Shown here in pieces: positions 13,997 to 38,524 of a stretch of 61,364 nt of DNA (positions are counted from its first letter, which is position 1; each line of letters opens with the position of its first letter). This DNA comes from Helicobacteraceae bacterium (GTDB taxonomy: Bacteria; Campylobacterota; Campylobacteria; Campylobacterales; Sulfurimonadaceae). Location: contig WTBY01000042.1 of the NCBI GenBank assembly GCA_013138865.1, forward strand, positions 1-61,364. Reading direction: 5' to 3'. A program made the position numbers and the translations under genes. The notes beneath the pieces were generated by a model. That model made no database searches, was not told the DNA's origin, and saw only the letters and a list, made by a program, of their open reading frames with translations.

Positions 13997-14371
13997 TTGA
14001 ACATGAGTAAAATTAGAATAGGCATTGTAGACGATGAAGAGAAAATTTTACATATGATAGAAGAGTATCTTAAAAGTAGTGGTAAATATGAAGTAATTAT
14101 TTTTAGTGATCCACTAGAGGCACTTGAAAAGATAGATAATAGTTTTGAATTAGTTCTATGTGATGTGATGATGCCTAACCTTGGTGGTATTGATCTGTCT
14201 CGTAAACTGTTGGAAAGAGATGAAAAATTAAAAATTATTATTATGACTGCTTATTCTACTTTAGAGTCTATGTTAAAATCAAATAGAGCAGGGGCAGTTG
14301 ACTATGTTATGAAACCATTTGAGTCACTTAAAGCTTTAGAAGAAAAAATTGCTCTTACATTAAGTCTATAA
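13997..14371 (+). CDS. Single-domain response regulator (CheY-like)
   Basis: A 124-residue stand-alone receiver: acidic pair V-D-D-E-E, phospho-acceptor L-C-D-V-M-M-P, T-A-Y switch (I-M-T-A-Y-S-T-L-E) and K-P-F. There is no output domain, so it must act by protein contact or as a phosphorelay step. Its stop overlaps the next ATG by one base (TAATG), which ties it to the kinase at 14371. It is clearly paralogous to the receiver at 35881-36237; both share M-T-A-Y-S-T-L-E, R-A-G-A-x-D-Y and M-K-P-F-x-S-L. Confidence 0.92.
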   Translation: MNMSKIRIGIVDDEEKILHMIEEYLKSSGKYEVIIFSDPLEALEKIDNSFELVLCDVMMPNLGGIDLSRKLLERDEKLKIIIMTAYSTLESMLKSNRAGAVDYVMKPFESLKALEEKIALTLSL

Positions 14372-15546
14372 TGAAAGAGTCATTACAATTTTTAAAAACA
14401 ATTTTAGATGTTATACCAATTGCTATTTATGTATTAGATGAAGATTTTAAATTTCTTAACTGTAATAGTGCATTTGCTCAACAGTTAAAGCAACCTAAAG
14501 AAGAGATTATAGGTGCTTCATGGTCTAAATTTATACCTGATTATTTATCATATATATATGACAAAAAAGATAAACAAATTAGAGATGGTACAAATCAAAA
14601 ATATAGAGAAATTTTAGAGATTGATGGTTATAGAGCAAAAATTATGATTTTTCATAGAGCAGCTCTTTTTGAAAATGAGGTTTTTGATGGTTTAGTTGGC
14701 GTTATGGAAGATGTAACCTCGAAAGAGGAGTATGAATTCTATATGAGTAAAAAAATAGAGTCAACAGTTGAAGAGGTTAGAGAAAAAGAGAGAGAGTTAA
14801 GAGAAGAGGGCATACAAAAAGCTAAGTACATGGCTATTGGTAAACTCTCTGCTGGTATTACGCATGAGATCAATACTCCACTTACGTATCTTAAAGGTAA
14901 TGTTGAGATGCTTGATTTAGAAATTAACTATATGGATGATAGTGATGCCAAACATAGAATGAAACACTGCTCTAACTCTATAGTGGATGGTATTTTTAGA
15001 ATATCTAATATAATAGAGTCTATGCGTGAAGTTACTCAAAGAACAAGTGCTATTAGTGAAAAAACTGATATATACCATACTTTAGTTACCTCACTTATTT
15101 TAGTTCAACATCGTACTAAACTTTTAGCAAATGTTTATATAAATAATCATCTATTTACTCCTGATGACACTCAAGTTAAGAGTGAATTTATTTCAAAAGT
15201 ACAACAACAAAGAGTAGAACAAGCTTGGATTATTATATTAAATAATTCTCTTGATGAGTTAGAAAAATTAGAAGAGAGTAGTGATAGTTATATATATATT
15301 GATCTGAATATTGTGGATGAGAATATTGTTATTCATATACGAGATAATGCAGGTGGTATAGACGAAGAGTTACTACCAACTATTTTTGACACTTTTGTTA
15401 GTAATAAGTTTAACGGCGGATTAGGAATAGGGCTAGATATAGCTAGAAACATCATAGAAGACCAACGTGGTAGTGTGAGAGCCTATAATGATAAAAGTAA
15501 AAGCGAAGCTATTTTTGAAGTGAAACTACCTCTTTTAAAAGAGTAG
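14371..15546 (+). CDS. Cytosolic PAS-domain histidine kinase
   Basis: A 391-residue soluble kinase. The PAS domain (residues 5-125) starts I-L-D-V-I-P-I-A-I-Y-V-L-D-E-D; a short coiled coil follows. The dimerisation/phospho-acceptor helix has G-I-T-H-E-I-N-T-P-L-T-Y, and the ATP lid has D-N-A-G-G-I-D and G-L-G-I-G-L-D-I-A. The His box is the H-E-[IL]-N-T-P-L class also used by the kinase at 35143, not the H-Q-W-R-Q-P class of its other neighbours. It is translationally coupled to the receiver upstream, and its 3' end overlaps the convergent GGDEF-EAL gene by 38 nt. Confidence 0.9.
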   Translation: MKESLQFLKTILDVIPIAIYVLDEDFKFLNCNSAFAQQLKQPKEEIIGASWSKFIPDYLSYIYDKKDKQIRDGTNQKYREILEIDGYRAKIMIFHRAALFENEVFDGLVGVMEDVTSKEEYEFYMSKKIESTVEEVREKERELREEGIQKAKYMAIGKLSAGITHEINTPLTYLKGNVEMLDLEINYMDDSDAKHRMKHCSNSIVDGIFRISNIIESMREVTQRTSAISEKTDIYHTLVTSLILVQHRTKLLANVYINNHLFTPDDTQVKSEFISKVQQQRVEQAWIIILNNSLDELEKLEESSDSYIYIDLNIVDENIVIHIRDNAGGIDEELLPTIFDTFVSNKFNGGLGIGLDIARNIIEDQRGSVRAYNDKSKSEAIFEVKLPLLKE

Positions 15547-24000: not shown

Positions 24001-25714
24001 CATCAACAGTTGGAGTTGTATCTTCTGCTGTTGTATCTTCAGAAGAAGCATCAGTTGTATCTTCATCATTTGTTGTTTCAGGAACTTCGTTTGCAGTCTC
24101 TTCAGGAACTTCATCAACTGTACTTTCGTCAGTAGTGTTCTCAGGTTGAGTATCTATAGTTTGCTCATCTTGAGTACTTTCTGGAACTTCATTAGCTGTA
24201 TCTTCTGGAACTTCGTCAGTTGTATTTTCAGCGTTTGTTTGCTCATCTACTTCAGCTGTTGTCTGTTCATCTTGAGTATTTTCAGGAATTTCGTTTGTAG
24301 TATCTTCAGGAACTTCGGCTGTTGTTACTTCATCACTTGTGTTCTCAGCTTGATCTGCAATAGTGTTCTCATCAACAGTGTTTTCAGGAACTTCATCAAC
24401 TGTCTCTTCACTTACTGGCTCAGTTGTATCTTCATCAACTGTTGACTCAGGAGTTTGTGCAGCTGTATCTTCATCAGTTGTACTCTCATCACTAGCCTCA
24501 GTGTTTATAAGCTCTGGAATTTCATCTACAGTTGATTCATCTGTAGTCTGTTCCTCACTTGCAGGAGTATTTACTGTTTCGTTAGTTGTATCTTCAGGAA
24601 CCTCTGCAACAGTCTCTTCTGCTTGAGTGTTTTCATCAACTAAAGGAGTTGTCTCTTCTGCCACCGCGTCAGTTGTATCTTCATCTTGTGTATCTTCATC
24701 AGTTGCATCTACAGTTGACTCGTCTGCTGTATTTTCAGGAACTTCAGCAACAGTCTCTTCTACCTCTGCATCAACAGTATCTTCATCAACAGTCTCTTCT
24801 GCATTACTTGCTACTGTATCTTCAGGAGTTGTAGCTTCATCAACTGCGTCAGTAGTCTCTTCTGGCGTACCGTCAGTTCTTTGTTCATCTACTGTATTTT
24901 CAGCAACTTCATCAGTTGTCTGCTCGTCAGTAGTATCTTCTTCAACTTGAGCAGTAGTATCTTCTTCAACTTCATCAGTAGTCTGCTCATCTTGAGTATT
25001 TTCATCACTTGCTTCAGTAGTTACTACTTCCTCAGTTGTCTCTTCTGGTATAGCATCAGTTGTCTCTTCTGGTGTAGCTGGAGTTGTATCTTCAGCTACT
25101 GTGTCTTCTGCTGCTGTTTCAGGAGCTTTAGACTGTGTTGTTTTTGCAGTCTCTTCAGGTGCTTCTGTTTGTGTTGTTTCAACTGTATCTTCAGGAGTTT
25201 CAGTTGGAATAAATTCAGGTATATCGTTTCCAGCGTCGGTTGTTTCAGTTTCAACAGTGTCATTTTCAAAACCAATATCTCTTAAGTCTGCCGCAACATC
25301 ACGTTCACTATCAACATTCTGGTCTACATCTTGAGAAACATCATCATCAGAGTTCTCTTCTTCTCCAGCTGCTGTATCTATGCTGTCCATAGCATCTACA
25401 TTACCATCGTCATTAAAGATATCTTCATTTTCAGCTATGCTATCTTCTTCTGAAAGAACATCATCTTTTTCAAAAGCAATATTTTTTAAAGAAGCATCAA
25501 AAAGGATCTCTTCAGTACCACCTAATGTAAATAGTTCACCACTCATAGAAGAAATTTCTATATTTGCTAGAGATAAATTCCCAGCATCTCCAAAAACTTG
25601 ATCATTTTCATTAATCTGATCGCCAACTTTTAACTCTCTTACTTCACCCGCACTATTTTTAACGAAAAACTTTCCATCACTTAATGCTGTTACTGTTCCG
25701 ATTACATTTGCCAT
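21065..25714 (-). CDS. Giant acidic Thr/Asp/Glu-repeat surface protein with LapA-type retention module
   Basis: This 1,549-residue protein has a retention module (residues 1-70: G-T-V-T-A-L-S-D-G-K-F-F-V, V-R-E-L-K-V-G-D), the part of LapA-type adhesins that plugs the TolC pore and holds them on the cell. T-A-A-G at about 114-117 matches the di-alanine site cut by LapG proteases. From about 150 to 1,430 it is a low-complexity array of short units such as E-D-T-T-D, E-N-T-V-D and E-V-P-E, almost free of Lys, Arg and aromatics. The array is broken near residues 770-860 by a Gly/Asn/Ser segment and about 20 S-K-G triplets. RTX nonapeptides are absent. Its own type I secretion genes lie directly upstream. 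It is probably a cell-surface polymer or biofilm adhesin. Confidence 0.85.
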   Translation of the reverse strand: MANVIGTVTALSDGKFFVKNSAGEVRELKVGDQINENDQVFGDAGNLSLANIEISSMSGELFTLGGTEEILFDASLKNIAFEKDDVLSEEDSIAENEDIFNDDGNVDAMDSIDTAAGEEENSDDDVSQDVDQNVDSERDVAADLRDIGFENDTVETETTDAGNDIPEFIPTETPEDTVETTQTEAPEETAKTTQSKAPETAAEDTVAEDTTPATPEETTDAIPEETTEEVVTTEASDENTQDEQTTDEVEEDTTAQVEEDTTDEQTTDEVAENTVDEQRTDGTPEETTDAVDEATTPEDTVASNAEETVDEDTVDAEVEETVAEVPENTADESTVDATDEDTQDEDTTDAVAEETTPLVDENTQAEETVAEVPEDTTNETVNTPASEEQTTDESTVDEIPELINTEASDESTTDEDTAAQTPESTVDEDTTEPVSEETVDEVPENTVDENTIADQAENTSDEVTTAEVPEDTTNEIPENTQDEQTTAEVDEQTNAENTTDEVPEDTANEVPESTQDEQTIDTQPENTTDESTVDEVPEETANEVPETTNDEDTTDASSEDTTAEDTTPTVDEDTADEDTGAEVPEETVDAVAEDTVSEDTTPAEDENTVDESTNGEVAEDTVDAVAEGTTDEDTTDAVAEDTVGENTVSEVPEETTNEVAEDTTGEDTADATDEDTTGEDTTPTVNEDTTDEDTTDKVSEDTTPANSEDTTSEDTTPEQDENTVDESTNAEVPEDTVEEVAEDTTAENTVDEQTSYGSEGSSNFASGLQDAVARANNGHGNGDQEAPGNSGSHNNAENATDTGSDGSKGSKGSKGSKGSKGSKGSKGSKGSKGSKGSKGSKGSKGSKGSKGSKGSKGSKGSKGSKGSSDKSSHNDENSENTVDEQTTPAVVVSEANPEDTTELQPESTIDENTVDSVDEDTTAEEVNSSATDEDTTPTVPEATVSEDTTDGSDEETVDAIVNEPAANEDTTNEDTTDGTPEDTANEVPENTVDESTVDAVAEDTTPQSVETPSSVEDTTDLQPESTVDESTNDAVAEETTDEDTTNAVDEDTTDLVAEDTTNEDTTDGSDEDTTDSVVNSPASDEDTTDESTVAEVPEDTTNEVAENTVDETTVDEVAENTNDEQTVDTVEEDTTDRVDEDTTPENELVEAEDENTVDESTIDTVAEETTDTVAENTLDEQTTDAVDEQTMDEQTTDAQAEVTTTPASDESTTDEATVDGENEDTTDEDTTDEVAEGTTDSVDENTLDENTVDAVTENTTDEDTTDNVDESTLDESTVDEVPAHIDTPSSTEDTTDEDTADATTENTVDENTVDTVAESTTDEEPENTVDEDTVDGSDEATTDAVTTTVATAESTVDEVPENTIDEQTNDLEPEETVDESTVDEVPEETADAVDENTQDENTVDAVEEDTADEDTTAEVPEETVDAVDENTVDASDNAEVADNDTPEDVGGIADADEVTLDFDQLANSTDDSAGADTGDADGVDVGDVLVSNDDVEDIDMSSLASEDDSSTPDTSNTPASTQEDDSYDGTADSTLVDNDMGNSSDLDVM
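23114..23293. repeat. 9-bp minisatellite, 20 units, encoding (Ser-Lys-Gly)20
   Basis: Twenty tandem 9-nt units, ACTACCTTT or ACTTCCTTT on the plus strand with two ACTTCCCTT and two GCTACCTTT variants at the right. They encode S-K-G triplets in the giant adhesin. The unit keeps the frame, so copy number can change without breaking the protein. The two main variants are clustered in blocks, which indicates recent slippage or unequal exchange. Confidence 0.95.
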
Positions 25715-25815: not shown

Positions 25816-26412
25816 TTATTTTAAAAGTAGTACTAAAGAGAGACGATCAACAACATTTAGTTTTTCAAAAATAGAACTAATATGTGCTTTTACAGTTCTT
25901 GGAGTGATCTCTAAATTTTCAGAGATCGCTACATTTGTTAAGCCTTCTAAAATAAGTAGTGTTACTTTTTTCTCTTGAGTACTTAAGCGATCTAAAAGTT
26001 CCGCACCAGCAATATCAAGATCTCTTGTAGCACTTTTCACCATAGAAGCTGTGAGCTCTGGATATGTCCAGTACTTACCACTTTGAACAGTTTCTAAAAG
26101 TTGAGTAAGGTGAAGTTTCAACATTCTTGAGTGACCGTAAGCACGAGCACCTTTGTGTATGACACTTTTTCCTGTGGTTACATTTGGGTTTTTTTCTAAA
26201 ATGACTATATTTTTTGGAAGGTTGTTATTTTTAAAGTATTCATTTACTTCTTGTGAAACACTATCGTAATCACATAAAATAATTATTTTAGCTAGTCTAG
26301 CTTGAGCATCTTCTAACTCTTCTACAGTATTCAAAACTATGGCAGTAGTCTCTAGTTGGGCATTAATATACTCTATAGTGTTTGGGTCTTGTGAAAAAAT
26401 AACTATTCTCAT
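25816..26412 (-). CDS. CsgD/LuxR-like transcription regulator with degenerate receiver
   Basis: A 198-residue regulator. The N-terminal 120 residues have a receiver-like outline (I-V-I-F-S-Q-D-P, I-I-I-L-C-D-Y-D) but lack the normal acidic triad and C-terminal Lys-Pro, as in CsgD, so phosphorylation is unlikely. The C-terminal LuxR-type HTH has L-S-T-Q-E-K-K-V, N-V-A-I-S-E-N-L and T-V-K-A-H-I-S-S-I-F-E-K-L. It is encoded 3 nt after the HlyD gene and just before the adhesin, the position of a dedicated activator for biofilm genes. Control of the adjacent adhesin promoter is inferred. Confidence 0.82.
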   Translation of the reverse strand: MRIVIFSQDPNTIEYINAQLETTAIVLNTVEELEDAQARLAKIIILCDYDSVSQEVNEYFKNNNLPKNIVILEKNPNVTTGKSVIHKGARAYGHSRMLKLHLTQLLETVQSGKYWTYPELTASMVKSATRDLDIAGAELLDRLSTQEKKVTLLILEGLTNVAISENLEITPRTVKAHISSIFEKLNVVDRLSLVLLLK

Positions 26413-26415
26413 TCT

Positions 26416-27834
26416 CTACCTTTCTGTAAATAGATGCTCTTTAGATTTTAAAATTGGTTTTAAAATATATGCCATTATACTCTTTTCTCCAGTAACAATG
26501 TCAACACTTACTGTCATTCCTGGAATAATCTGCATAGGCTTCGATTTATGACCTATATAGTCCTTATCTGTAAGAATAAAAATTTTATAAAATGTATTAT
26601 CTTTAGCATCTGTGATCGTATCTGGTGAAATACTAACAACTTTTCCCTCAAGTCCACCATAAATTGCATAGTCATAAGCTGAAAATTTAACTTTAGCGAT
26701 CGCACCGGGGTGAATAAAAGCGATATCATTAGGTTTAATTTTAACTTCTAAGTATAGCTTGTCATCTGTTGGAACTATCTCTATTAGGTCTTGACCTGGT
26801 TTTACAACTCCACCTATTGTGTGTACATAAAGTTTTTGTACAACACCTGTAACGGGAGATGTGATCATAGTTCTACTAACTGTATCCCCAAGAGCTAAAG
26901 AGTTCTCTTTTATACGTTCAAGTTCTGCATTGATCTCATTTAACTCTTCATTGATCTCATTTTGAAATTTCAGTTTATTCTCGACTCTTTTTTCTCTAAA
27001 CTCTAAAATAGTTGAGTACTGAGAAGGTAATAAAAGTTTAGACGAGTCAAGGTCTTGCTCTGTTGCTATTGCCTCTCGTTGAAGTTTTAAAAAGTCAACT
27101 TTAGACTTTACCCCATCTTTTACCATAGGCAGAGTCATTGCTATCTCTTCATCGACTAGTGCTAGTGAGTTTTCAAGGTGTTTTACTTTTTGTTTAGTCT
27201 CTAAGTATTCATGCTTTTTTTGCTCTATCTGCTCAACTATAATACGGTCTTGAGATTTAAACTCATTTTTGTCACTATTATAGAGTTTGATCTCATTATT
27301 TTTAATTTTAATTTCTATGCTACTGTTGGCTTTTGGTGGGTTGAAAGGTTGATCGTTTGCTTCAGCAAACAGTCTCATTACTTTAACTTGAAGTTCATAT
27401 TTTTTAATTTCATTACTCTTAAAACTAGAGTCAGACTTCGAGTTTGTTAGTTTTATAAGTATTTGTCCCTTTTCAACTTTTTGACCTTGTCTTACTAAAA
27501 GCTCTTTAACAATACCGCCTTCAAGATTTTGCAAAATTTGGTTGTCACCATAAGGTATAACCTCACCATCGCCTTTTGTGATTTCGTCTATTTTAGCATA
27601 AGAAGCCCACACACTGAATACGAAAATAGATATAAGCCAGAAATAAAGGATGTTTGTTAGTCGTGAGGGAACTTCTTCTAAAATAGCTGCACTCATGCTA
27701 TTCATAAAGCTATATTCATTTTTAGTAAATGACTCTTTTTTTTGAGAAGGTTTTTTTATGCGTCTAAGTTTAAATAGTATCTTTTCGATAAGTACTTTTA
27801 AGCGCTGATAATATAGATGCTTAGTTAAAGTCAT
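26416..27834 (-). CDS. Type I secretion periplasmic adaptor (HlyD/LapC family)
   Basis: This 472-residue membrane-fusion protein has a cytosolic N-terminus, one membrane helix (about 60-80), a lipoyl half-motif (G-D-G-E-V-I-P-Y-G and L-E-G-G-I-V-K-E-L-L-V), a long coiled-coil hairpin (about 150-310), the second lipoyl half (I-T-S-P-V-T-G-V-V-Q-K-L) and a C-terminal beta-barrel domain (G-L-E-G-K-V-V-S-I-S-P-D, P-G-M-T-V-S-V-D-I-V-T-G-E-K). It links the ABC exporter to the TolC channel. It lies in the order TolC-ABC-adaptor, as in lap loci, and is probably specific for the giant adhesin. Confidence 0.93.
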   Translation of the reverse strand: MTLTKHLYYQRLKVLIEKILFKLRRIKKPSQKKESFTKNEYSFMNSMSAAILEEVPSRLTNILYFWLISIFVFSVWASYAKIDEITKGDGEVIPYGDNQILQNLEGGIVKELLVRQGQKVEKGQILIKLTNSKSDSSFKSNEIKKYELQVKVMRLFAEANDQPFNPPKANSSIEIKIKNNEIKLYNSDKNEFKSQDRIIVEQIEQKKHEYLETKQKVKHLENSLALVDEEIAMTLPMVKDGVKSKVDFLKLQREAIATEQDLDSSKLLLPSQYSTILEFREKRVENKLKFQNEINEELNEINAELERIKENSLALGDTVSRTMITSPVTGVVQKLYVHTIGGVVKPGQDLIEIVPTDDKLYLEVKIKPNDIAFIHPGAIAKVKFSAYDYAIYGGLEGKVVSISPDTITDAKDNTFYKIFILTDKDYIGHKSKPMQIIPGMTVSVDIVTGEKSIMAYILKPILKSKEHLFTER

Positions 27835-27880: not shown

Positions 27881-30034
27881 TTACTTTTTTTTCAACTTTA
27901 TTAGAACATCTTTTTTATCGCCATCTAGAAGTTTTTTACCCTCATGCATAACTATGACTCTATTGACAATATCAAGCAGTTGCATTTTTTGTGTAACTAT
28001 GATCACAGTTTGATCATCACAGTAACGATTTAGGTTTTTAATAAGGTTTGCTTCACTTGTTTGATCCATGTTAGAACTTGGCTCATCTAAAAGAATAAAA
28101 GGTGTTTTGAAAAGTAGAGCACGAGCTAGTGCAACACTCTGTTTTTGACCACCAGATAGTCCACCACCACGCTCGCTAATAGGCATTTCAAAACCTAATG
28201 GATGTTTTTTAATAAACTCATCTGCGCCACTAATATATGTAGCTTTTAAAATAGCACCATCACTTACATAAGATGCTCTCATGATCACGTTCTCTTTAAG
28301 TGTTCCGCGAAAGAGACTAATATCTTGGGAGAGGTAACTAATGTTTGATCTAAGTGAGGCAGGGTTTATTTGGTTTATATCAATACCATCAATTAAAATT
28401 TTACCTTCATCGGGTTCATATAGACCAAGAATTAGCTTCTCAACTGTTGTCTTTCCACTTCCCATACGTCCTATAATAGCAACTCTCTCATGAGGTTCTA
28501 TTGTAAATGAAACATCTTTAAGTGCTAGCATTTCACTACCTGGGTATCTAAATGTTACATGTTGAAACTCTATTCCACCATTTAAAATAGGGCGATCTAT
28601 AAACTCTTTTCCCTCACCACGTTCTGAAGGTAACTGCATAATACTGTCTAGTGAGGCATAAGACTGTTTTGTATCTTCTATTTGTGTTAAGAGTGAAGCA
28701 ACACCTGCCATAGGTGCAAGTGTACGTCCTGTTAATATAACGATCGCAATAAGTCCACCCATAGAGAGTTGAAAGTCTTGTATTAAATAGACACCAACTA
28801 TAATGATTAAAACTGAGTTAAGCTGAATTAAAAAGCTTATGATCGCAGGTATAGATGAAGACAAAATTCTAGCACTAAAACTTTTTGATGAGACTTCGCC
28901 AATAGCCTCTTCCCACTTGAACTGTAACTCATTTACAGTTCCAAGTGTTTTAATAGTCTCTATGTTTTGAAGTGTCTCTATTAAAATTGCACTTTTTAGT
29001 GAACTTGCTTTGTGTGAGTGTTTTATACTATTAGCTAGGTGACCACGTATACTAAATGTATAAATTAAAATAATAGCGATCGTAGTTAGTGGAACGAACA
29101 CCATAACGCCACCTAAATAGGCTATAACAAAGAGAAAAATAAAAACAAAAGGTAAGTCTATAAGTGTTGCTAAAGAAGCATTTGTTAAGAATTTTCTAAC
29201 ATTATCAAACTCTTTTATGGTGTTTGCAAAGTTACCAACTGAGCTTGGAAAGTCTTTCATTTTAAGGTTTAAGACTTTCTCGAAGATCATACTAGACATA
29301 ATAATGTCACTTTTTTTAGCCGCTGTCTCTAACATGTAGGTTCTAGTAAATTTTAAGAAGAGATCTAGCATATAGACAAGTACAACTCCGATCGCAAATG
29401 CCCAAAGTGTACCGACCGCATTATTTGGAATAACACGATCGTAAACATTCATAGTAAACAAAGGAGTAGCTAAAATGAAAATATTTATTAATACTGAAGC
29501 TACAATTACATTTTTATAGACATTTTTAGAAATTTTAAGAGTATCCCAAAACCACTGTTTTGGTTTCTCTATTAGTCCTAGATCTTTAAAAAGTGAGTTA
29601 GCAGCAAAGTTTTTTTGGAGTAAAAAACCAAAGCCTGTGTACTGATCTGCTAAGTCATCCATTGAGACTTCTATTTCTACGGCTTCTTCTGCTGGCATTA
29701 TAATTCTAACTTCAGAGCGATCAGGACTCATTGACTCTAAAATACAAGCACTTTGGTTTTTAAGAATTACAATCATAGGTAGTTGCAGAGGTGAAATATG
29801 GTGCATTGCTTTTCTAACAATAGAGCTTTTTAGACCTGCATTAGCAGCAGCACGAGAGAACATACCTCTTGAGTTATTTATAGAAAATAGTACAGGTGAT
29901 TTTGTACCAGGTTCAGTTGGTAAACCTGCTGTTAGTGACTCTTTTGTAGAGGGTTTATGAAATTTTTTTGTATATATGACTAAACACTCTAGTAGCGAGT
30001 CTGAGCTTACTTCATATAGTTCATCAACTACCAT
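27881..30034 (-). CDS. Type I secretion ABC transporter with peptidase-like N-domain (LapB type)
   Basis: A 717-residue exporter. Residues 1-140 form a C39-like domain without the catalytic Cys-His-Asp set, the non-cleaving substrate-docking form seen in LapB and HlyB. The membrane domain (about 165-450) has six helices. The ATPase has Walker A G-R-M-G-S-G-K-T-T, signature L-S-G-G-Q-K-Q-S and Walker B F-I-L-L-D-E-P-S. Such transporters move large unfolded adhesins straight across both membranes. A non-cleaving docking domain agrees with a substrate that keeps its N-terminal retention module. Confidence 0.94.
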   Translation of the reverse strand: MVVDELYEVSSDSLLECLVIYTKKFHKPSTKESLTAGLPTEPGTKSPVLFSINNSRGMFSRAAANAGLKSSIVRKAMHHISPLQLPMIVILKNQSACILESMSPDRSEVRIIMPAEEAVEIEVSMDDLADQYTGFGFLLQKNFAANSLFKDLGLIEKPKQWFWDTLKISKNVYKNVIVASVLINIFILATPLFTMNVYDRVIPNNAVGTLWAFAIGVVLVYMLDLFLKFTRTYMLETAAKKSDIIMSSMIFEKVLNLKMKDFPSSVGNFANTIKEFDNVRKFLTNASLATLIDLPFVFIFLFVIAYLGGVMVFVPLTTIAIILIYTFSIRGHLANSIKHSHKASSLKSAILIETLQNIETIKTLGTVNELQFKWEEAIGEVSSKSFSARILSSSIPAIISFLIQLNSVLIIIVGVYLIQDFQLSMGGLIAIVILTGRTLAPMAGVASLLTQIEDTKQSYASLDSIMQLPSERGEGKEFIDRPILNGGIEFQHVTFRYPGSEMLALKDVSFTIEPHERVAIIGRMGSGKTTVEKLILGLYEPDEGKILIDGIDINQINPASLRSNISYLSQDISLFRGTLKENVIMRASYVSDGAILKATYISGADEFIKKHPLGFEMPISERGGGLSGGQKQSVALARALLFKTPFILLDEPSSNMDQTSEANLIKNLNRYCDDQTVIIVTQKMQLLDIVNRVIVMHEGKKLLDGDKKDVLIKLKKK

Positions 30035-30059: not shown

Positions 30060-32615
30060 TCATCTTTGTAAAAGCCATGCATCTGGAAATTTACTTTTAA
30101 GATCTTTTAAGAGTTTGAAACTATTTTCACTCTCTTTTACTCTTGTTACAATACTATAAATTCCTTTGTCTTCCACTATTTCTAGGTTGTTAAAGTTATA
30201 TTTTTTTGAGTTTTCTAAAAGAGTATTAATTGCGTATTCTTTGTTTGAATATGTACCAAGATAGATCACATCACCTAACTGAGTTGCTTCATCAAGTTCA
30301 TCTTTTTGTGTTGTAACTTCTTCTTCAATTTCTATTTTTGGCTCTTCTGTCTTAGTATCTGGAACTTTAGAAACCATAGTTTTTTGAACAGGAGCATTTT
30401 TTAGTAACCACGCATCAGGAAATATTTTTCTAATATTTGCTAATACCTTTGAATTATTTTCATTACCATCAACTCTACTTATCATACTAAATACACCATT
30501 GTCTTCAACGATCTCTAGGTTGTCTAAGTTAAGAGCAGTTTTATTCTTACTTAAACTTTTTAGAGCATTTGCTTTGTTACTATATGTTCCCATATAGATG
30601 GCAGCATTTAACTCTTTTTTCTCTTCTATAATATCTTCTGTATCAAGAAGCTCTTCTGTCTCAACTATCTTTTGGTCTAGGTTCTCTTTTTCTACAACTT
30701 CTTCACTTTTTGCTATTTCTAGCTCTTCTTTTGCTTCTTTTACTTTTAGAGTCTGGGTTGGAATTGCTATCTCTTTAGCTGCTACAACTGCTGCAACTGC
30801 TTTAATAGGTGCTGCTATAATATCTTCTACAAAAGATGGTGTAACAGCTCCATTACGATGCTGAAGGCTTAGCTCTTCTATTGATGGTTCTGGTCTTAAC
30901 ATTTCATCATCAAAAGCTGTCTGTTTACTCTCTTGTGCTGGTGCTACTATCGGAGTCTCTTCTTTTAAAGTCTCTTCTTCATCTATTGTGTTCTCATCTT
31001 CTATTAGAATCTCTTCTTCTTTTTCCTCTTCTTCATTTATAGTATCATCTTCAAAAGCACTATCTTCACTAAATGCTTCTTCATCTTCTTCACTTAGATC
31101 TTCTTCTTCCTCTTTTGTGCTAACAAAGTTTTCATATTTTACACGATCAGGTAGGGCATGATCGATATTAGTTTCAATATAACCATAACTGTTTATTTTG
31201 TCATCTTTTTTAGAGTTTGAAGATATATCTATATTATTTAAGATTTTATCATTATCGTAATCGTTGTTGATAGATATGGTGTCATCTGTTATATTGTTTT
31301 TTGTTTTAGATAAACCAACATTTGCTAAAGATGGATTTTCCTCTTTTAAAACTTCTATAACTAACATACCGATCGCATCTAGTATTTTGTACTTAGAGTA
31401 AAGAATTTCAAAATTTCCTTCTGCGATCTGTTTTTTGGCACTTATTAGATCATTTTGTGCTGTTAATAGATCTAGCAGTGATCTTCGTCCTAAGTCATAC
31501 TCTTTAGTGTAAAGATCAAGTGTTAAAAATGAGTACTCTTTATATTTTAGAAGATGTTTCATTTTTTCTTGTAGTTTCATGTGTGATGTATGTGCTAAAG
31601 AGATCTGCTCTATAACTTGACGTTTAAGATCATCTTGAGCTGAGATCTCTTTTTGAACTTGTGAAATTGCTTGTTGTAATTTTGCACTATCTTCTAAACC
31701 GTTAAAAAAGTTAAAAGATAAGTTTAGTTTTGCTGTAAATTCATTACTATCACCTCTGTAAGTAGCTGAAGTTTTAACTGCACTTTGTGTAACGTCAAGA
31801 TCTAGTTTAGGGTAGTAAAAACTTTTTCTCTCTTTGTAAAGAGATTGGAACATTTTAATGTTATAGCTACTTACTATAAGTGTTGGACTATGCTTAAGTG
31901 CTAAGGCAATAATTTCATCTTTAGAAGATGGCATTTTTAAGTCTATAAAAGGTATTACCATACTTTTTTCATCAATATAGCGACCTAAAACTCTATGTAG
32001 GCTATGCTTGGCATCTAAAAGGTTATTCTGAATTACTACATAGTTTGACTTAGATAGCTCTAAAGAAGCATTTACCTTGTTTACTTCTGAAAGTGTAATA
32101 TGTCCTGCGTTAAAAAGCTTTTCAACCTTTGCTGAAATATTAGTTGATATCTCTATATTTTCATAGGCGATCTCTAGTAGTTCTTTATACTGTAGCACAT
32201 CAATGTAAACTTTAGACATATTAAAAGCTACGTCATTTGTTGTCTCTATGTAGCTGTAGGCTGAAGCTGTTGTTTTAGCCTCTTCTGCATTTGTTGAGTG
32301 ACGAGTAGCAAAGCCATTGAAAATATTTTGTGTTAGTTTTAAAGAGTATTGGTAGGATTGAATATTATCTTTTTTATAGTCTGAGGAGAGACCATCAAAA
32401 CTGCCATCGGCTAGTGAACTTGTAAGATCTATTTTAGGTAAGTAACCTGATTTTGCGATCGTTACATCTTCACGTGTGTAGTTAAAGTGTTTTAAACTCT
32501 CTACAACTTTAGGGTTAGTTGCTAGAACATCTACAACACACTCTTTTAAGGTTTCGGCCTCTAAGGAGAGTTGTAATAGTAAAATATAGCTAATGACTAT
32601 AACACTCTTTTTCAA
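30060..32615 (-). CDS. TolC-family outer membrane channel with acidic linker and two SPOR-like repeats
   Basis: An 851-residue protein, about twice the usual TolC length. A signal peptide (I-S-Y-I-L-L-L-Q-L-S-L-E-A) leads into a TolC/LapE-like domain (about 25-430) with paired N-x-x-x-A/L coiled-coil repeats. From about 430 to 670 there is a very acidic Glu-rich linker. Two homologous repeats end the protein (about 675-745 and 780-851), sharing [IV]-Y-[ML]-G-T-Y-S-N-K, N-L-E-I-V-E-D and F-P-D-A-W-L-L; their size and G-T-Y-x-N-x-x-x-A pattern suggest SPOR domains, which bind denuded peptidoglycan. The linker is itself Glu/Thr-rich. The fusion would tether the adhesin channel to the wall. Confidence 0.85.
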   Translation of the reverse strand: MKKSVIVISYILLLQLSLEAETLKECVVDVLATNPKVVESLKHFNYTREDVTIAKSGYLPKIDLTSSLADGSFDGLSSDYKKDNIQSYQYSLKLTQNIFNGFATRHSTNAEEAKTTASAYSYIETTNDVAFNMSKVYIDVLQYKELLEIAYENIEISTNISAKVEKLFNAGHITLSEVNKVNASLELSKSNYVVIQNNLLDAKHSLHRVLGRYIDEKSMVIPFIDLKMPSSKDEIIALALKHSPTLIVSSYNIKMFQSLYKERKSFYYPKLDLDVTQSAVKTSATYRGDSNEFTAKLNLSFNFFNGLEDSAKLQQAISQVQKEISAQDDLKRQVIEQISLAHTSHMKLQEKMKHLLKYKEYSFLTLDLYTKEYDLGRRSLLDLLTAQNDLISAKKQIAEGNFEILYSKYKILDAIGMLVIEVLKEENPSLANVGLSKTKNNITDDTISINNDYDNDKILNNIDISSNSKKDDKINSYGYIETNIDHALPDRVKYENFVSTKEEEEDLSEEDEEAFSEDSAFEDDTINEEEEKEEEILIEDENTIDEEETLKEETPIVAPAQESKQTAFDDEMLRPEPSIEELSLQHRNGAVTPSFVEDIIAAPIKAVAAVVAAKEIAIPTQTLKVKEAKEELEIAKSEEVVEKENLDQKIVETEELLDTEDIIEEKKELNAAIYMGTYSNKANALKSLSKNKTALNLDNLEIVEDNGVFSMISRVDGNENNSKVLANIRKIFPDAWLLKNAPVQKTMVSKVPDTKTEEPKIEIEEEVTTQKDELDEATQLGDVIYLGTYSNKEYAINTLLENSKKYNFNNLEIVEDKGIYSIVTRVKESENSFKLLKDLKSKFPDAWLLQR

Positions 32616-32669: not shown

Positions 32670-34172
32670 TTAAATGAGTTTTTTCTTTGCAATAAGGGCT
32701 TTTTTTAATGAGGCTTTCATATTTGAATATTTATCTTCATTCTGCTCTAGTATTCTATTTTCTGATCTCATTTTTGCTTCTAGAGGAATTAGTTCATCCT
32801 CTAAAATATTATACTTAGCAATTGACTCTTTATCTATAGCTTTTGTTTTTAACTCTTCACTCTTTTCAGTTAGTTTTGAAATATTAATCTTTATATCTTC
32901 TACTTTTTCTTTGATTCTAGTTTTCTCTCCATCAGTTTTAGCTGTATAAAGAGAGTCTCCCCATGCTATTAGTGACTTTTTTGCATCAGCTAGATCTTCT
33001 ACTAGTGCTCGTTTTTTTGCTAAGTATTTTTTATGATATTCAACAGGATTTAATTTTTCAACATATAATTTTTTCATATTAACTCTAATTACAGATAGCT
33101 TTTTGTCTAGTACACGAATATTTTGAATAGCATTAACATAACTTTTAGATATTGATAGAATAGAGATAGCATTCCATCTTTTACCTTCTTCAGTTGTAAT
33201 AGAAGGAATAGAATACCTCTTACCATCAAATACAACTATATCTTCAGAGTATATTTTTAAGAGTCTTTCTATATAGATATCACGATTAACTACCTTCTCT
33301 AAAATAATATCTGCTATATATTCAAAAGTGTCACCAAAATGTTTTCTAAAAAAGTAACCAGAGAGACCTTTAAAGAACTCTTCATTATTATCAAATTGCT
33401 CTAAGAACTGCTCTGTAATAATCTCTTGAATATATGTAAAAACGTATTTATCGTAAGTGTTAAAAGTTATCTTTTTTTCTTTAAAGTAAATGTCACTAAA
33501 TCGTTGAGCAACTAAACGACAAAATTCTTTATCCTCTTCTTTAGAGAAATTTTGTTTATAAAATAGCTCTAGATCAACTTCATTAATTCCATTGTATCTA
33601 TTGGCAATACTTTTCTCTGCTTTATTTACTATAGTTTGTACTTTAGGAGTATATATTTTAATAAGTATTTGTCGTTTTTTAATTATGACAATATCTCTTT
33701 GTTTTATTTCTAGGGCTTCTCTTACTACATATTTAATTAACTCTTTTTTGTTAATTTCTTCGTTCTCAATTATATTAGCATTGTTATAAATATCTCTTCT
33801 AAGGTTACCTTGGATTGAGATAGAATCAGAATTACCTTTATAATTATATTCAACTTGATCATTATTATGGTTAATAATAGCTATTAATGTTTTCAAATTC
33901 TTGCTATCTTGTGGTTTTTTTGTGTAGCCAAAGAGTTTTATTCTAATTTCACCATCTTTCATCTGAAAGATAATGTATCCATAAGGCTCAAAAAAGTCTA
34001 CAAAAGCTTGTTTAACCTCTAGTCTGTTTTTACTATCTTTAAGATAATCAAGAGGAAATTTTTCATTAATATATGCAATAACTTCATTACTATACTTTCT
34101 AATCCATTTAAACTCTGCAGAAGGTTGCGGTAAATTTGCTTTTAAGTAAAATTTTAAACCTAGATAAATCAT
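32670..34172 (-). CDS. Unknown 500-residue cytosolic protein between SiaC and the secretion genes
   Basis: I do not recognise a family. The N-terminal 120 residues are mixed alpha/beta (Y-S-N-E-V-I-A-Y-I-N-E-K-F-P-L-D-Y; V-D-F-F-E-P-Y-G-Y-I-I-F-Q-M). A middle helical part is rich in Phe and Lys, and a C-terminal coiled coil spans about 370-490. There is no signal peptide and no membrane helix apart from a short N-terminal hydrophobic patch. The gene begins 7 nt after SiaC and ends 54 nt before TolC, so it is probably co-transcribed with both. Position suggests an effector or scaffold read by SiaC, taking the place of the diguanylate cyclase SiaD. That is inference from context. Confidence 0.7.
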   Translation of the reverse strand: MIYLGLKFYLKANLPQPSAEFKWIRKYSNEVIAYINEKFPLDYLKDSKNRLEVKQAFVDFFEPYGYIIFQMKDGEIRIKLFGYTKKPQDSKNLKTLIAIINHNNDQVEYNYKGNSDSISIQGNLRRDIYNNANIIENEEINKKELIKYVVREALEIKQRDIVIIKKRQILIKIYTPKVQTIVNKAEKSIANRYNGINEVDLELFYKQNFSKEEDKEFCRLVAQRFSDIYFKEKKITFNTYDKYVFTYIQEIITEQFLEQFDNNEEFFKGLSGYFFRKHFGDTFEYIADIILEKVVNRDIYIERLLKIYSEDIVVFDGKRYSIPSITTEEGKRWNAISILSISKSYVNAIQNIRVLDKKLSVIRVNMKKLYVEKLNPVEYHKKYLAKKRALVEDLADAKKSLIAWGDSLYTAKTDGEKTRIKEKVEDIKINISKLTEKSEELKTKAIDKESIAKYNILEDELIPLEAKMRSENRILEQNEDKYSNMKASLKKALIAKKKLI

Positions 34173-34179
34173 AAATAGC

Positions 34180-34560
34180 TTATTTAACTACAAGTTTAAT
34201 ATCAAGACCTTTAAAGTCAGCTTGAAAATCTTCACCTGTCTCTTCTGAAATATCATTCTCTTCGTCATAGATCCAGTTTGTCTCTATATCTTGCCCTGCA
34301 TCATGTGCAATCTCTAGTATGTCTAGTAGATCAAAATAGGCTTTTAAACTACTTGAATTTAAGTACTCTAAGTCAAGGTTAACTACTGTTTTATCATTTT
34401 TAGTCTCTTTAAAGTACTCTTCAACCCATTCAACAACTGGTTTATAAAATTCAAATGTATTTTCTGGGTAAGATTTACCAGCAATGCTTAGTACGTCAGT
34501 CTCAGCATTAAGGTCAATTCGAGGAGTATATTTTGTTGCTTCTATATTTAAGTTTTTCAT
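34180..34560 (-). CDS. siaC: SiaC-family regulatory phosphoprotein (DUF1987)
   Basis: A 126-residue protein matching the SiaC/DUF1987 pattern: T-P-R-I-D-L-N-A-E, L-S-I-A-G-K-S-Y-P-E-N-T, F-Y-K-P-V-V-E-W-V-E-E-Y, and L-E-Y-L-N-S-S-S-L-K with the S-S-S/T that carries the regulatory phosphosite. In Pseudomonas, SiaC phosphorylated by SiaB cannot activate the diguanylate cyclase SiaD. The start at 34560 is chosen because AAGGAC precedes it by a good distance and the longer reading overlaps SiaB. Here no siaD follows, so the output is probably different. Confidence 0.85.
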   Translation of the reverse strand: MKNLNIEATKYTPRIDLNAETDVLSIAGKSYPENTFEFYKPVVEWVEEYFKETKNDKTVVNLDLEYLNSSSLKAYFDLLDILEIAHDAGQDIETNWIYDEENDISEETGEDFQADFKGLDIKLVVK

Positions 34561-34573
34561 TTTTGTCCTTGAT

Positions 34574-35113
34574 TTATATGTATGTTTTAATATGAAAATA
34601 TATTTTACCTGAAATAGTTTCAAAGTCATACTTTAGCTTTTCACTAGATCTTTTTGCCATCTCTATAAAACCAACACCAGCACCACGTTCATGTGAGTCT
34701 TCAGCTGATCGTAGCTTTTCACGTAAAAACTTTCTTTGAGAATCTTTGTCTAGTGAGTTTATATGATCAATTTTTGATGATACTTTTGCTTGGTCTGAGT
34801 GTACAATTTCATTAGAGCTACTAACGTAGAATTTTTCTTTTTCATCATCATAACCTATTACTAAGACACCGGGACTAGTATATTTACAACCAGATTCTAT
34901 ATGCTTGTCTTTTGCATAACTCATAATGTTTTGTAACTGCTCAATTGCGATTAAAAACATATTTCTTGTTATCTTCGCATCATGCCCTTGCTCTTCTAGT
35001 TGAGACTTTGCTGTTTCAACCATAAAAGATGTTAACGACTGAGAGATCATTCCTGAGAAAGAAAATACTATACCTTCTTCTTCCATAACAGTTCTTACTC
35101 TTGAGATATCCAT
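34574..35113 (-). CDS. siaB: SiaB-family protein kinase
   Basis: This 179-residue protein matches the SiaB family (DUF6272). It begins M-D-I-S-R-V-R-T-V-M-E-E-E-G and contains F-S-G-M-I-S-Q-S-L, a GHKL-like helix N-M-F-L-I-A-I-E-Q-L-Q-N-I-M-S-Y-A-K, and the lid R-G-A-G-V-G-F-I-E-M-A-K-R-S. Known members phosphorylate SiaC on Ser/Thr. The start at 35113 has AAAGG upstream; the TTG three codons earlier has none. It is encoded just before siaC. The usual opposing phosphatase SiaA is not in the window, so input may come from the kinase and receiver genes immediately upstream. Confidence 0.87.
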   Translation of the reverse strand: MDISRVRTVMEEEGIVFSFSGMISQSLTSFMVETAKSQLEEQGHDAKITRNMFLIAIEQLQNIMSYAKDKHIESGCKYTSPGVLVIGYDDEKEKFYVSSSNEIVHSDQAKVSSKIDHINSLDKDSQRKFLREKLRSAEDSHERGAGVGFIEMAKRSSEKLKYDFETISGKIYFHIKTYI

Positions 35114-35142
35114 TAAGTACAACCTTTTTGTGGTGTTTACAT

Positions 35143-35874
35143 TTATAAAGGTAGGGTTATTTTAAACAGTGCTCCACCATTAGAATTAGTAGCACTAATT
35201 TTACCTTTATGTGCCTTAACTATATCTTTGGCTACTTTTAAACCTATACCCATTCCTCCATCTTTTCTGTCGTTAACTACATCTTGAAATAGGTGCTTTA
35301 AAACAGTGCTTCCTATGCCTAATCCATTGTCTTGAAATGATATAGTTACACTATTTATCTCATTCAAAATAGTGATCTTTAAAACTCTATCATCTACTTC
35401 AGTTACTCTTTTTAAAGCATCTAAAGCATTTAGAATAATAACTTTAAATAGTGTTTCTAGTCTATTTTTTTGTGCATTAATGACTATTTTAGGTATCTCT
35501 TTTTCAAAGTTAAGATCAAAGAGAGTATCTTGAAGTGTTATTTTAGAGATAGGTTTTGAGTGATTGTAAAGCAGAGTAAGTGAGTTTTTAAGTATCTCTA
35601 CTATGTCACTATCTTGTGGTATTTCACTATTTTCGAATGATAACTCTTTTAGTAGTTCAACTACATTTGTAATTCTATGTAGTCCATCAAGAATAGTGTT
35701 TGCATCTTCAATTAGGTAACTTTTTGTCTCTATAGAGTCATCTAGTGTCTTAATGTCACTAATTAGGAGTTCAACATTTGCTAGTGTATATGTTAATGGA
35801 GTATTAAGTTCATGTGTAACTCCACCACTAAACTTTTCAATACTTTCAAGTTCATTTAATTTGTGTTTTTTCAT
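35143..35874 (-). CDS. Short histidine kinase without sensor domain
   Basis: A 243-residue kinase core: phospho-acceptor box G-V-T-H-E-L-N-T-P-L-T-Y at residues 18-29, N-box N-A-L-D-A-L, then D-N-G-L-G-I-G and G-M-G-I-G-L-K-V-A. There is no membrane helix and no PAS domain, so it must receive its signal from a partner, perhaps the soluble chemoreceptor encoded two genes upstream. It is paralogous to the kinase core at 14371-15546; both use the H-E-[IL]-N-T-P-L box and are paired with the same type of stand-alone receiver. Confidence 0.9.
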   Translation of the reverse strand: MKKHKLNELESIEKFSGGVTHELNTPLTYTLANVELLISDIKTLDDSIETKSYLIEDANTILDGLHRITNVVELLKELSFENSEIPQDSDIVEILKNSLTLLYNHSKPISKITLQDTLFDLNFEKEIPKIVINAQKNRLETLFKVIILNALDALKRVTEVDDRVLKITILNEINSVTISFQDNGLGIGSTVLKHLFQDVVNDRKDGGMGIGLKVAKDIVKAHKGKISATNSNGGALFKITLPL

Positions 35875-35880
35875 TTAAGG

Positions 35881-36237
35881 CTATAAAACTGCTTTTATTT
35901 TTTTAGTTATTTCATCTAGTGACTTAAATGGTTTCATAATATAGTCTGTAGCACCAGCTCTTTGAGATTGTAAAACAGTCTCAAGTGTGGAGTATGCTGT
36001 CATAATTATAACTTTAGCGTTAGGATATTTTACTTTTAGTTTTGGAAGTAGCTCTAAACCATTTATTTGAGGCATCATAACATCAAGTAAAATTATTTCA
36101 GTGTCATCATTTAAGCGTTCAAGTGCTGTTAATGGGTTAGCAAATGTTTGAACCTTGTGTAGATCATTTCTTGTTAAAAAACGCTCTAATGTTGTTAATA
36201 TTTCTTGTTCATCATCTATTATTACTATTTTTGCCAT
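35881..36237 (-). CDS. Single-domain response regulator
   Basis: This 118-residue receiver has I-D-D-E-Q, phospho-acceptor L-L-D-V-M-M-P, I-M-T-A-Y-S-T-L-E and M-K-P-F. It is encoded 6 nt before the short kinase and 4 nt after the chemoreceptor, and is a close paralogue of the receiver at 13997. With no output domain it probably acts on SiaB, the kinase or the chemoreceptor. Confidence 0.92.
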   Translation of the reverse strand: MAKIVIIDDEQEILTTLERFLTRNDLHKVQTFANPLTALERLNDDTEIILLDVMMPQINGLELLPKLKVKYPNAKVIIMTAYSTLETVLQSQRAGATDYIMKPFKSLDEITKKIKAVL

Positions 36238-36241
36238 CTGT

Positions 36242-37567
36242 TTATTTCCTATTATTTTTAAATATATTTTCTGCTGCTTCTGCCATCATTACATCACTTC
36301 TCTCTTGTACGATCGCATCTAAATACTTTCCAACATCATCGCTAGCATTTTCTATTTTGTGAACTCGCTCTTCTATAATATCTTTAGAACATAGTGCTTT
36401 CCCACCTGTACACTCTGTCGCTAAAAGGTTTGCTTGATCATGAACTATAGCATGTGGCTTATCTATCTTAGAATATGAAGGCATTTTTGAGAACAGCTCT
36501 TTTCCTAGACCAGTTGTATACCATTTACCTAGCCTACACTCTGTGTGTTTAGAGCTTTGAAAATCATTTTTCTCACCAAAAATAAGTGCATATACATTAT
36601 GTTTATACATAAGGTGATCTATCTTTGCTAAAGCTACAAATATAACATCGCTAATATGTCCTACTTCGTATTGTGATCTTGAAGCATTTTGCTCAAATGA
36701 GCGGACTTTTACGTCAAGGTCAGTGATCATATCTTTTGTATTTACTACTAATGTATTAACTTCTGCTGTACTCTCATGAGCCTGAGATGTCTCTTGTTGC
36801 ATAGACTTAACAACTACGGAAATATCTTTAGTAGCAGTTTGAGTCTTTTCTGCTAATTTTCTTACCTCGTCAGCAACAACAGCAAAACCACGACCATGCT
36901 CACCAGCTCGTGCCGCTTCGATCGCAGCATTAAGTGCAAGAAGATTTGTCTGATCTGCAATATCTTGAATAAGAGTTACAACAGAAGAGATCTCTTCACT
37001 TCTAGTATTAAGTGACTGCATACCATCCATAGTATTTTGCATATGTATTTCTAGTGACTCCATAGCATCTGAAGAAGAGACTATAAGCTCTAGACCCATT
37101 TGTGCTTCATCAGCAATTACAACTGCTTCATCTTTCATTTGATGGAGCTCATCTAACATGTTTATAAAAGTACCTTGAGTATCTTTAAGTGAGTGAGTAA
37201 TTGCATCTTGATGCATCTCTAAAATAGAACTATCTCTAGTGTCTCTCATGTCACTTTTAATGATACTGTAAAGAGTATTGCCATTGTCATCTTTTAGACT
37301 ACAAACCTTACCACTACACTCATTTAAACTAATTTTATCTTCACCTTTAGCTAACTCTTTAAGTAACATGGCACTATCTTTAACCATACTCTCAGCTTTA
37401 GTATTTTGAAAAATAATTTTGTTTGAGCTATCTACTACTATTGATATCTCTTCTTGAGAAAAAGTAGCTATACCTTTGTAAAGATCACGCTCACTCTCTA
37501 GCTCTCTAACTTTACTCTCTAGCTCTTTTATTTTGTCCTCATGGACTTTGTTGTTCCCAAAAAACAT
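36242..37567 (-). CDS. Soluble methyl-accepting chemoreceptor with C-terminal CZB zinc-binding domain
   Basis: A 441-residue protein with an N-terminal coiled coil, a short PAS-like region (about 30-110), a chemoreceptor signalling tip ([31 protein letters not shown]) and a CZB domain (about 320-400) with H-N-V-Y, C-R-L-G-K-W-Y and P-H-A-I-V-H. CZB domains bind zinc through 3 His and 1 Cys and sense zinc or oxidants such as HOCl. No membrane helices are present. Its place inside a kinase-receiver-SiaB operon suggests it gates the biofilm pathway rather than swimming. Confidence 0.9.
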
Positions 37568-37570
37568 ATT

Positions 37571-38524
37571 TTAAATCTCCTCACAATATTTTTTATATTT
37601 AAATAAAAATGAAGCACCATCATTTTCATTAACTACACTCAATTCACCAGTATGCTTTTGTGCGATCTGTGAACTCATATAAAGACCTATACCAGTTCCT
37701 TTTCCTTCAGTTTTAGTTGTAACATTAGCTTTAAAAATATCTTTAATTACTGACTCAGGAATTCCACCTGCATTGTCTTGCATCTTAATAGTATTGTACT
37801 TATCACAACTAGAAATAGTGATAGTTATTTTTCTATTTTTGGTACTATTCTCAATAAATGCATCTTTTGAGTTATTTATTATGTTTATTATTAAATGTTT
37901 GAACTCGTTTTCACTTCCAAAAAGTGTAAAGTCTTTTTCTGTATTTAACTCTAAGTTTATACTGTTTTTTATAAATTCATCTTTAACTAGAAGAAAAACT
38001 TTTTTAACCATACTCTCAATAGAGAATATTTCTGGATCTTTTGCTGGTCTAAAAAATGTTCTAAATTCATCAAGTGTATTCACCATATGATCTATTTGAG
38101 TTTTAACATCGTCTTGAAGCTTTTGAACATACTCTTCATTTATAAGACCATCTTCAAGATCGTAGCTCATCATTTGAACTTGCATACTTATAACACCGAT
38201 CGGTTGTTTCCACTGGTGTGCTACAGCGTCCATCATTTCACCCATAGAAGCTAGTCGAGCTTGTTGAAGAAGCATTTTTTCTTTCTCTTCTCGTTTTTTG
38301 ATCTCATCTTCAACTTTAAGTTCTAAGTTCTTTTTATGATCATCTAGCTCTTCATTTAGGTTAATCAACTTTAGTTGCTGTTTATCACTATGAAGCATGA
38401 TCTTCTCTAAACGTTTTGATTTTCTTTTATAATCTTCTAATAGTTTTGATATATTTTTTTCTAACAATACATAGTCAGAGTCTAAAAAGTTTTCTATATA
38501 TTCTACTAGGTTATCTTTAGGCAT
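37571..38524 (-). CDS. Cytosolic histidine kinase (H-Q-W-K-Q-P type)
   Basis: This 317-residue kinase has an N-terminal coiled coil (about 20-85) and a core with M-G-E-M-M-D-A-V-A-H-Q-W-K-Q-P-I-G-V, N-box N-I-I-N-N-S-K-D-A-F, D-N-A-G-G-I-P and G-T-G-I-G-L-Y-M. No membrane segment or clear sensor is visible. It is the first gene of the minus-strand run and is separated by 3 nt from the chemoreceptor gene. The H-Q-W-[RK]-Q-P box is the class common in Campylobacterota and is also used at 11722. Confidence 0.9.
   Translation of the reverse strand: MPKDNLVEYIENFLDSDYVLLEKNISKLLEDYKRKSKRLEKIMLHSDKQQLKLINLNEELDDHKKNLELKVEDEIKKREEKEKMLLQQARLASMGEMMDAVAHQWKQPIGVISMQVQMMSYDLEDGLINEEYVQKLQDDVKTQIDHMVNTLDEFRTFFRPAKDPEIFSIESMVKKVFLLVKDEFIKNSINLELNTEKDFTLFGSENEFKHLIINIINNSKDAFIENSTKNRKITITISSCDKYNTIKMQDNAGGIPESVIKDIFKANVTTKTEGKGTGIGLYMSSQIAQKHTGELSVVNENDGASFLFKYKKYCEEI

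Follow-up and report, generated by a model that had tools for sequence, protein, structure and literature searches.

A SiaB-SiaC partner switch in a type I secretion operon and its candidate histidine kinase effector

Background

What does a SiaB-SiaC pair act upon where neither the phosphatase SiaA nor the cyclase SiaD is encoded beside it, and what would then dephosphorylate SiaC? These questions are raised by a locus of a Helicobacteraceae bacterium lying on a stretch of 61,364 nucleotides (the window), which constitutes the whole of one contig (C12) of a 3.03-Mb genome in 82 contigs. To our knowledge, SiaC is known only as the activator of one cyclase. In describing the structure of the SiaC-SiaD complex, its authors put forward DUF1987 proteins as modulators of adjacent proteins and named no other target (PMC8457831).

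Operon layout and identity of the SiaB and SiaC proteins

The siaB-siaC pair is embedded in a minus-strand block of ten same-strand genes (38524-26416) separated by gaps of 3-54 nt, which code in order for HK1, an MCP-CZB protein, a receiver, HK2, SiaB, SiaC, P500, TolC, an LssB-type permease and HlyD (Table 1). A gene for a LuxR-type regulator follows 3 nt past the last of these and that for a repetitive 1549-aa protein another 101 nt on, while a scan from 39500 to 24500 found no terminator-like sites on the minus strand. A preliminary description of this DNA had reported a siaB-siaC pair placed after a kinase and a receiver and before a 500-aa protein and a secretion system. The Pfam and NCBIfam models confirm the pair, the layout stands with the secretion system being of type I, and the operon begins two genes upstream of the set then described, with HK1 and the MCP-CZB protein.

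Table 1. Genes of the operon and of the stretch directly following it
Feature	Position	Strand	Basis or remark
HK1, histidine kinase with an N-terminal helical stalk as its only input element	37571..38524	-	Pfam HisKA/HATPase
Soluble chemoreceptor-like protein with C-terminal zinc-binding CZB domain (MCP-CZB)	36242..37567	-	MCPsignal 4.5e-38, CZB 1.5e-13
Stand-alone receiver (REC), 118 aa, D-D-K residues present	35881..36237	-	Response_reg 4.7e-26
HK2, sensorless HisKA/HATPase histidine kinase without the stalk motif	35143..35874	-	HATPase_c 2.8e-14, HisKA 8.7e-6
SiaB-family serine/threonine kinase, 179 aa	34574..35113	-	PF19788 1.2e-33, NF038262 above cut-off
SiaC, 126 aa	34180..34560	-	PF09345 3e-41; aligned to 6k4f/6kko
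P500, 500 aa, C-terminal helical hairpins	32670..34172	-	Conserved, without assigned family
TolC-type outer membrane protein with long C-terminal extension	30060..32615	-	TIGR01844 1.9e-74
LssB-type type I secretion permease/ATPase	27881..30034	-	TIGR03375 837 bits, cut-off 693
HlyD-type adaptor of the secretion system, without stalk	26416..27834	-	HlyD_3 1.3e-18
LuxR-type regulator, right after HlyD	25816..26412	-	GerE 1.6e-14; 3-nt gap
1549-aa repetitive protein, candidate secreted substrate	21065..25714	-	Pfam: collagen-like repeat only

In addition to its Pfam match, SiaC aligns with the solved SiaC of Pseudomonas aeruginosa at an E-value of 1.3e-22, with N-S-S standing for the N67-T68-S69 site of that protein and S69 in YLNSSSLKA as the phospho-site equivalent of its T68 (YLNTSS of 6k4f). 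The open reading frame spans 34180-34629 on the minus strand, and its actual start codon is the ATG at 34560, downstream of an AAGGA site. That of SiaB spans 34574-35122 on the same strand with the ATG at 35113 as the likely start; its product scores 137 bits against the NCBIfam SiaB_fam_kinase model NF038262 (cut-off 85) and falls short of the narrower SiaB equivalog NF038264 (74 versus the 225 needed). As the SiaC tree is poorly resolved, we relied in its place on the identity of SiaB and SiaC, and among 79 fetched loci the closest SiaB (76%) and SiaC (68%) both occur in a single locus, L150 of Sulfurimonas sp. SAG-AH-194-I05. Sulfurimonas, Sulfuricurvum and Thiovulum are among the fetched relatives with a name, which points to an origin of the window in the Sulfurimonadaceae. 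The gene order there is SBP/PAS/SpoIIE phosphatase, receiver, siaB, siaC, stalk HD-GYP, a 140-aa gene, a second siaC and P500. This operon thus shares P500 with that of the window but differs from it in that SiaA and a receiver adjoin, in that its effector is the stalk HD-GYP protein, and in having neither a histidine kinase nor secretion genes. Its 140-aa gene (11198-11620) has no family assignment.

A SiaC-docking motif on the stalk of HK1

At residues 38-50 of its N-terminal stalk (RLEKIMLHSDKQQ) HK1 displays the SiaC-docking motif that is present twice in SiaD (RLERIARISDGFQ and RLEKVARISDRYQ, the latter being that of 7e6g_A), and these residues match the docking-stalk pattern R-x-x-K-I-x-x-x-S-D-[KR]-x-Q. 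In the SiaC-SiaD structure T68 of SiaC contacts S82 and Q86 of SiaD, and adjacent SiaC residues contact D83 (PMC8457831). Of the SiaD contact residues, R74, K77, S82, D83 and Q86 are retained in HK1, V78 and R84 are conservatively replaced by I and K, and R80, I81, Y85, M88, R90 and D91 are changed; R103 of SiaC, the partner of D91, is an isoleucine in the window SiaC. The catalytic motifs of HK1 are intact (phospho-acceptor H103, N-box from 217, G1 from 250, G2 from 276) and no domain lies ahead of the stalk. Furthermore, an AlphaFold model (pTM 0.56) presents residues 18-124 as a single helix spanning both the motif and H103, with a pLDDT of 85-91 near the motif. Given the lack of a preceding domain and the single helix running to H103, SiaC docking would, as on SiaD, act on the coiled coil that leads into the catalytic dimer.

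The stalk-family HMM recovers HK1 from its own genome at 3e-21, HK1 itself being among the rows of the model. With a profile from the two SiaD motifs alone HK1 is the top match in the window at an E-value of only 1.9, so that the relationship to SiaD rests on intermediates, and a phmmer search with a single stalk did not recover SiaD. As the SiaD-only profile is too short and phmmer missed it, the link was made via the SiaD residues published with the structure and the family alignment. The query used to go from the stalks to SiaD combined the published contact residues with filler from stalks of this genome, and its E-value therefore cannot count as independent support, unlike the SiaD sequence as printed.

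The closest relative of HK1 (60.5%, L215) is encoded by the last gene of a siaA-RR-siaB-siaC-HD-GYP operon, and the kinases nearest to it are located in siaABC loci or retain the stalk. Stalk kinases of siaABC operons (L215, L188, L118/L205, L122, L193, L196, L228 and others) are 43-60% identical to HK1 and bear an intact motif beside siaC, as in L188 with its order SpoIIE-kinase-receiver-siaC-HD-GYP-siaB; unlike the window operon, most of these loci keep siaA, and none was seen to be followed by a type I secretion system.

Linkage of the stalk to siaC across genomes

Four stalks were recognized by eye in siaC loci of this genome, on HK1, a CheA-like protein (C17), an HD-GYP protein (C76) and an HlyD protein (C3). 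When 120 further genomes of the family were searched with a profile built from these four, 13 matches fell below 1e-5; every one of the 13 has a siaC gene no more than 1.7 kb away (~0.03 expected by chance), and they sit on HD-GYP, histidine kinase, CheA-like and GGDEF proteins. Across the 77 named siaC loci, 70 of the 72 stalk matches are near siaC as against 30 expected, and a stalk protein lies no more than 3 kb from siaC in 62 loci, the effectors being HD-GYP proteins (44), histidine kinases (15), CheA-like (6), GGDEF (3) and unclassified (2) proteins. The commonest stalk protein adjoining siaC in Campylobacterota (L150-L228, L110-L127) is of the HD-GYP (HD_5) type. In an alignment of 25 diverse stalks, including that of SiaD, the D and Q are invariant, and in 11 siaC-linked kinases S-D-Q-Q matches the catalytic residues in invariance.

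HK1-family kinases also exist without SiaC in three genomes, and the motif Q is retained in none of these three kinases (H, R and R in its place) versus 19 of 21 siaC-linked ones, in a comparison of small numbers, with a completeness of only 81-89% for two of the three genomes without SiaC. In the two loci whose linked kinase lacks the Q (L110 and L152), the operon encodes another stalk effector, and that one is intact. The PAS-HlyD proteins of three SiaC-less genomes begin at the PAS domain, without the stalk seen on the C3 HlyD.

The genome at hand encodes five stalk proteins, namely HK1 and four others including an orphan HD-GYP protein on C33, and six copies of SiaC, that of the window included. 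Consequently, the specificity of the HK1-SiaC pairing is assumed from gene order, the two genes belonging to the same operon at a distance of 3 kb. This multiplicity would also accommodate a scenario in which the real partner of the window SiaC is the C33 protein or one of the HD-GYP, CheA-like and HlyD stalk proteins of the other siaC loci, the stalk of HK1 being a relic or serving another SiaC. The C33 protein does resemble the HD-GYP protein that follows siaBC in L150, but its motifs lack the Q (G-D-R-E-F and S-D-N-Q-G), whereas the motif of HK1 is intact and shares an operon with SiaC; we accordingly regard such a partner as rather unlikely. The C33 gene (L268, 727-1644) stands as an orphan coding for two degenerate copies of the docking motif. 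Elsewhere, on C52 (L026, 10045-10926), a lone siaC is followed by a CheY-like receiver, with siaA, siaB and a stalk protein absent nearby.

A candidate SiaA in trans

No SpoIIE/PP2C gene was found on the 61-kb contig, and a search of the whole genome found no SiaD-type docking stalk on a GGDEF protein, the matches being HK1, CheA-like, HD-GYP and HlyD proteins. Hence, the earlier statement that SiaA and SiaD are lacking holds for the operon and the contig and, as to a stalk GGDEF protein, for the genome, but not for siaA-type SpoIIE phosphatases, which are encoded elsewhere. The search for PP2C genes elsewhere in the genome, which had been proposed alongside that statement, found ten SpoIIE phosphatase genes, three of them adjoining other siaC genes, so there are candidates for SiaA in trans. 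The L150 SpoIIE domain is most similar to the siaC-unlinked copies on C65 and C41 (70% each), a placement with moderate tree support (88-92 SH-aLRT); the C77 phosphatase was dismissed as its closest counterpart at 63.5%. The siaA-type gene on C65 is followed by that for a 128-aa receiver, and this protein gives the top match to the receiver of L150 (44.5%, 4e-38; next 2e-24). This pair matches the siaA-receiver pair that directly precedes siaB-siaC in L150, and in light of this resemblance the siaA-receiver and siaB-siaC halves appear to be located apart in this genome. A comparable situation is seen for siaC loci with no SpoIIE gene in the fetched stretch (L193, L196, L223, L186), whose genomes encode two to five SpoIIE proteins each. 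We propose that SiaA is probably supplied in trans.

The preliminary description had instead posited that the receiver and HK2 feed SiaB and SiaC, with a His-Asp relay replacing the SiaA phosphatase. About 14 of the named loci have a receiver gene immediately between siaA and siaB, which makes receivers part of the input side in some siaABC operons, and HptB-HsbR-HsbA offers a known case of a partner switch fed by a His-Asp relay (PMC5085249, PMC6482189). However, those receivers accompany SiaA and do not replace it, and the operon receiver and HK2 are closest not to the siaA-siaB receiver family but to an unlinked pair in the window, the receiver being 47% identical to that at 13997-14371 and HK2 34% to its nearest relative, the window kinase at 14371-15546. 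Together with the siaA-receiver pair of the right lineage on C65, the SpoIIE proteins in trans of other siaA-less loci and the docking stalk on HK1, this renders a relay acting as input improbable. Rather, the docking motif of HK1 and the location of its kinase family beside siaABC make it more likely that the His-Asp relay operates downstream of SiaC. The P. aeruginosa HptB-HsbR-HsbA-HsbD system (PMC5085249) similarly joins His-Asp signalling to a partner switch and an output protein, but its relay lies upstream of the phosphatase and HsbA is a STAS protein rather than SiaC, whereas the window kinase is proposed to be downstream. The unlinked 13997-15546 genes form a receiver and PAS-kinase pair, whose neighbours encode GGDEF and GGDEF-EAL proteins.

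A possible link to adhesin export

The genome encodes two LssB-type permeases that score above the TIGR03375 cut-off, one on C12 and one on C3, and each belongs to an operon that includes siaB-siaC (chance ~0.001 if siaC positions were random). On C12 the permease is accompanied by the HlyD_3 and TIGR01844 TolC proteins that complete an LssB-type system. On C3 (L024, 4598-15030) the order is repeat protein, REC-PAS-SpoIIE-SiaB fusion, siaC, tolC, permease and stalk-PAS-HlyD; the HlyD subunit bears the docking stalk with GDRQH at the S-D-x-x-Q site, and this departure at the critical site makes docking there doubtful. A further locus on C76 (L027, 6828-13388) codes for SiaC, two SiaB proteins, a LapD-like protein, a LapG-like protease and a LapD-SiaB fusion with LapD_MoxY_N, GGDEF, EAL and DUF6272 domains, the SiaB kinase domain being C-terminal.

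Based on the exporters found with siaBC on C12 and C3 and the Lap-like genes on C76, we suggest that adhesin export or retention is the most likely physiological output, the link to secretion being plausible. The preliminary description had favoured secretion or the 500-aa protein over c-di-GMP synthesis as the output; the lack of a SiaD-type cyclase and the association of both LssB exporters with siaB-siaC agree with an output other than that cyclase and with a plausible link to secretion. LapA/LapD/LapG-type systems (PMC3032545) are comparable in pairing an LssB/LapB-type exporter with a large repetitive protein, and LapD-LapG-like genes accompany siaB-siaC on C76, but Lap control operates by c-di-GMP and protease-dependent retention, whereas the window operon adds a kinase and a partner switch. 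Apparent type I secretion neighbours in L170 and L171 proved on inspection to be other genes. The 1549-aa protein resembles in its N-terminus the repeat protein adjoining the C3 exporter; it contains DEDTT-type repeats and a GSK-rich stretch, and the large antisense open frames over its gene look like composition artefacts. By eye, the C-terminal extension of the TolC protein is acidic, about 400 aa long, and has two SPOR-like repeats.

Proposed mechanism and wider implications

The sequences themselves show which genes are present and how the operon is arranged, that the docking motif occurs and is linked to siaC across genomes, and that relatives of the siaA-receiver pair exist in trans. These observations support the view, already advanced in the preliminary description, that the pair has been rewired to an output other than a SiaD-type cyclase. 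On these grounds we consider it reasonably likely that the locus encodes a SiaB-SiaC partner switch with HK1 as effector, SiaA in trans and an output on type I secretion and adhesin genes. By homology, SiaB would phosphorylate SiaC at S69, and phospho-SiaC would be unable to dock; the phosphate would be removed by a SpoIIE/PP2C protein encoded elsewhere, most likely that of the C65 siaA-receiver pair (or of C41 or C77). Unphosphorylated SiaC is predicted to bind HK1 at its N-terminal stalk by way of the S-D-x-x-Q contacts used on SiaD, and docking would alter the coiled coil entering the H103 helix, thereby setting, in one direction or the other, the kinase/phosphatase balance of HK1. HK1 might then hand its phosphate to a receiver, plausibly that of the operon, and the pathway may thus control the type I secretion and adhesin genes of the same operon. 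The order would be signal, SiaA in trans against SiaB, SiaC, HK1, receiver and output, with every step past SiaC being conjectural.

The SiaABCD system of P. aeruginosa (PMC7647112, PMC8457831) is alike in its SiaB kinase, in SiaC as a phospho-switch with an N-[T/S]-S site, in the S-D-x-x-Q coiled stalk as the dock for SiaC and in an effector devoid of other sensory domains. It differs in that the effector in the window is a histidine kinase rather than a GGDEF cyclase, siaA is outside the operon, and the operon runs into a type I secretion system. Much more tentatively, the SiaC switch could be a general plug-in, whose stalk has been grafted on cyclases, HD-GYP proteins, histidine kinases, CheA-like proteins and HlyD, with serine phosphorylation gating adhesin export; within this speculative extension the C3 HlyD, with its GDRQH site, is the least certain part. 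A readable docking motif would make SiaC effectors predictable across hundreds of genomes, and it predicts two-component kinases and HD-GYP proteins as targets, the latter with an expected effect on c-di-GMP opposite to that of SiaD. It would also account for "sensorless" kinases, the sensor being a separate protein, and would connect serine-phosphorylation switches to adhesin export.

The P500 family

P500 has no Pfam or NCBIfam family, eight homologues gave no consistent Pfam match, and its AlphaFold model (pLDDT 82) has no significant fold match in the PDB; the matches among solved sequences were rejected as coiled-coil chance matches. It is found in 48 of 121 genomes of the family. P500 adjoins the 3' side of siaC in the window, on C77, in L150 (the second siaC), L206 and L207, is part of the siaC operon also in L156, L164, L181 and L191, and thus recurs beside SiaC without being confined to such a position. 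The copy in the window is most similar to a paralogue on C59 (45%) and then to copies mostly from SiaC-less genomes (38-41%), as against about 34% to siaC-linked copies. Although this recurrence and its long C-terminal helical hairpins make it a weak effector candidate, the docking motif is absent from P500, and most members of its family lie away from siaC, in SiaC-less genomes, so that a role as the SiaC effector appears very unlikely; the earlier proposal of the 500-aa protein as output has weak support in its recurrence beside siaC. On C77 (L025, 7556-14225) a siaC-P500 pair without siaB is convergent to the gene for a SpoIIE protein of 1567 aa that contains several solute-binding domains.
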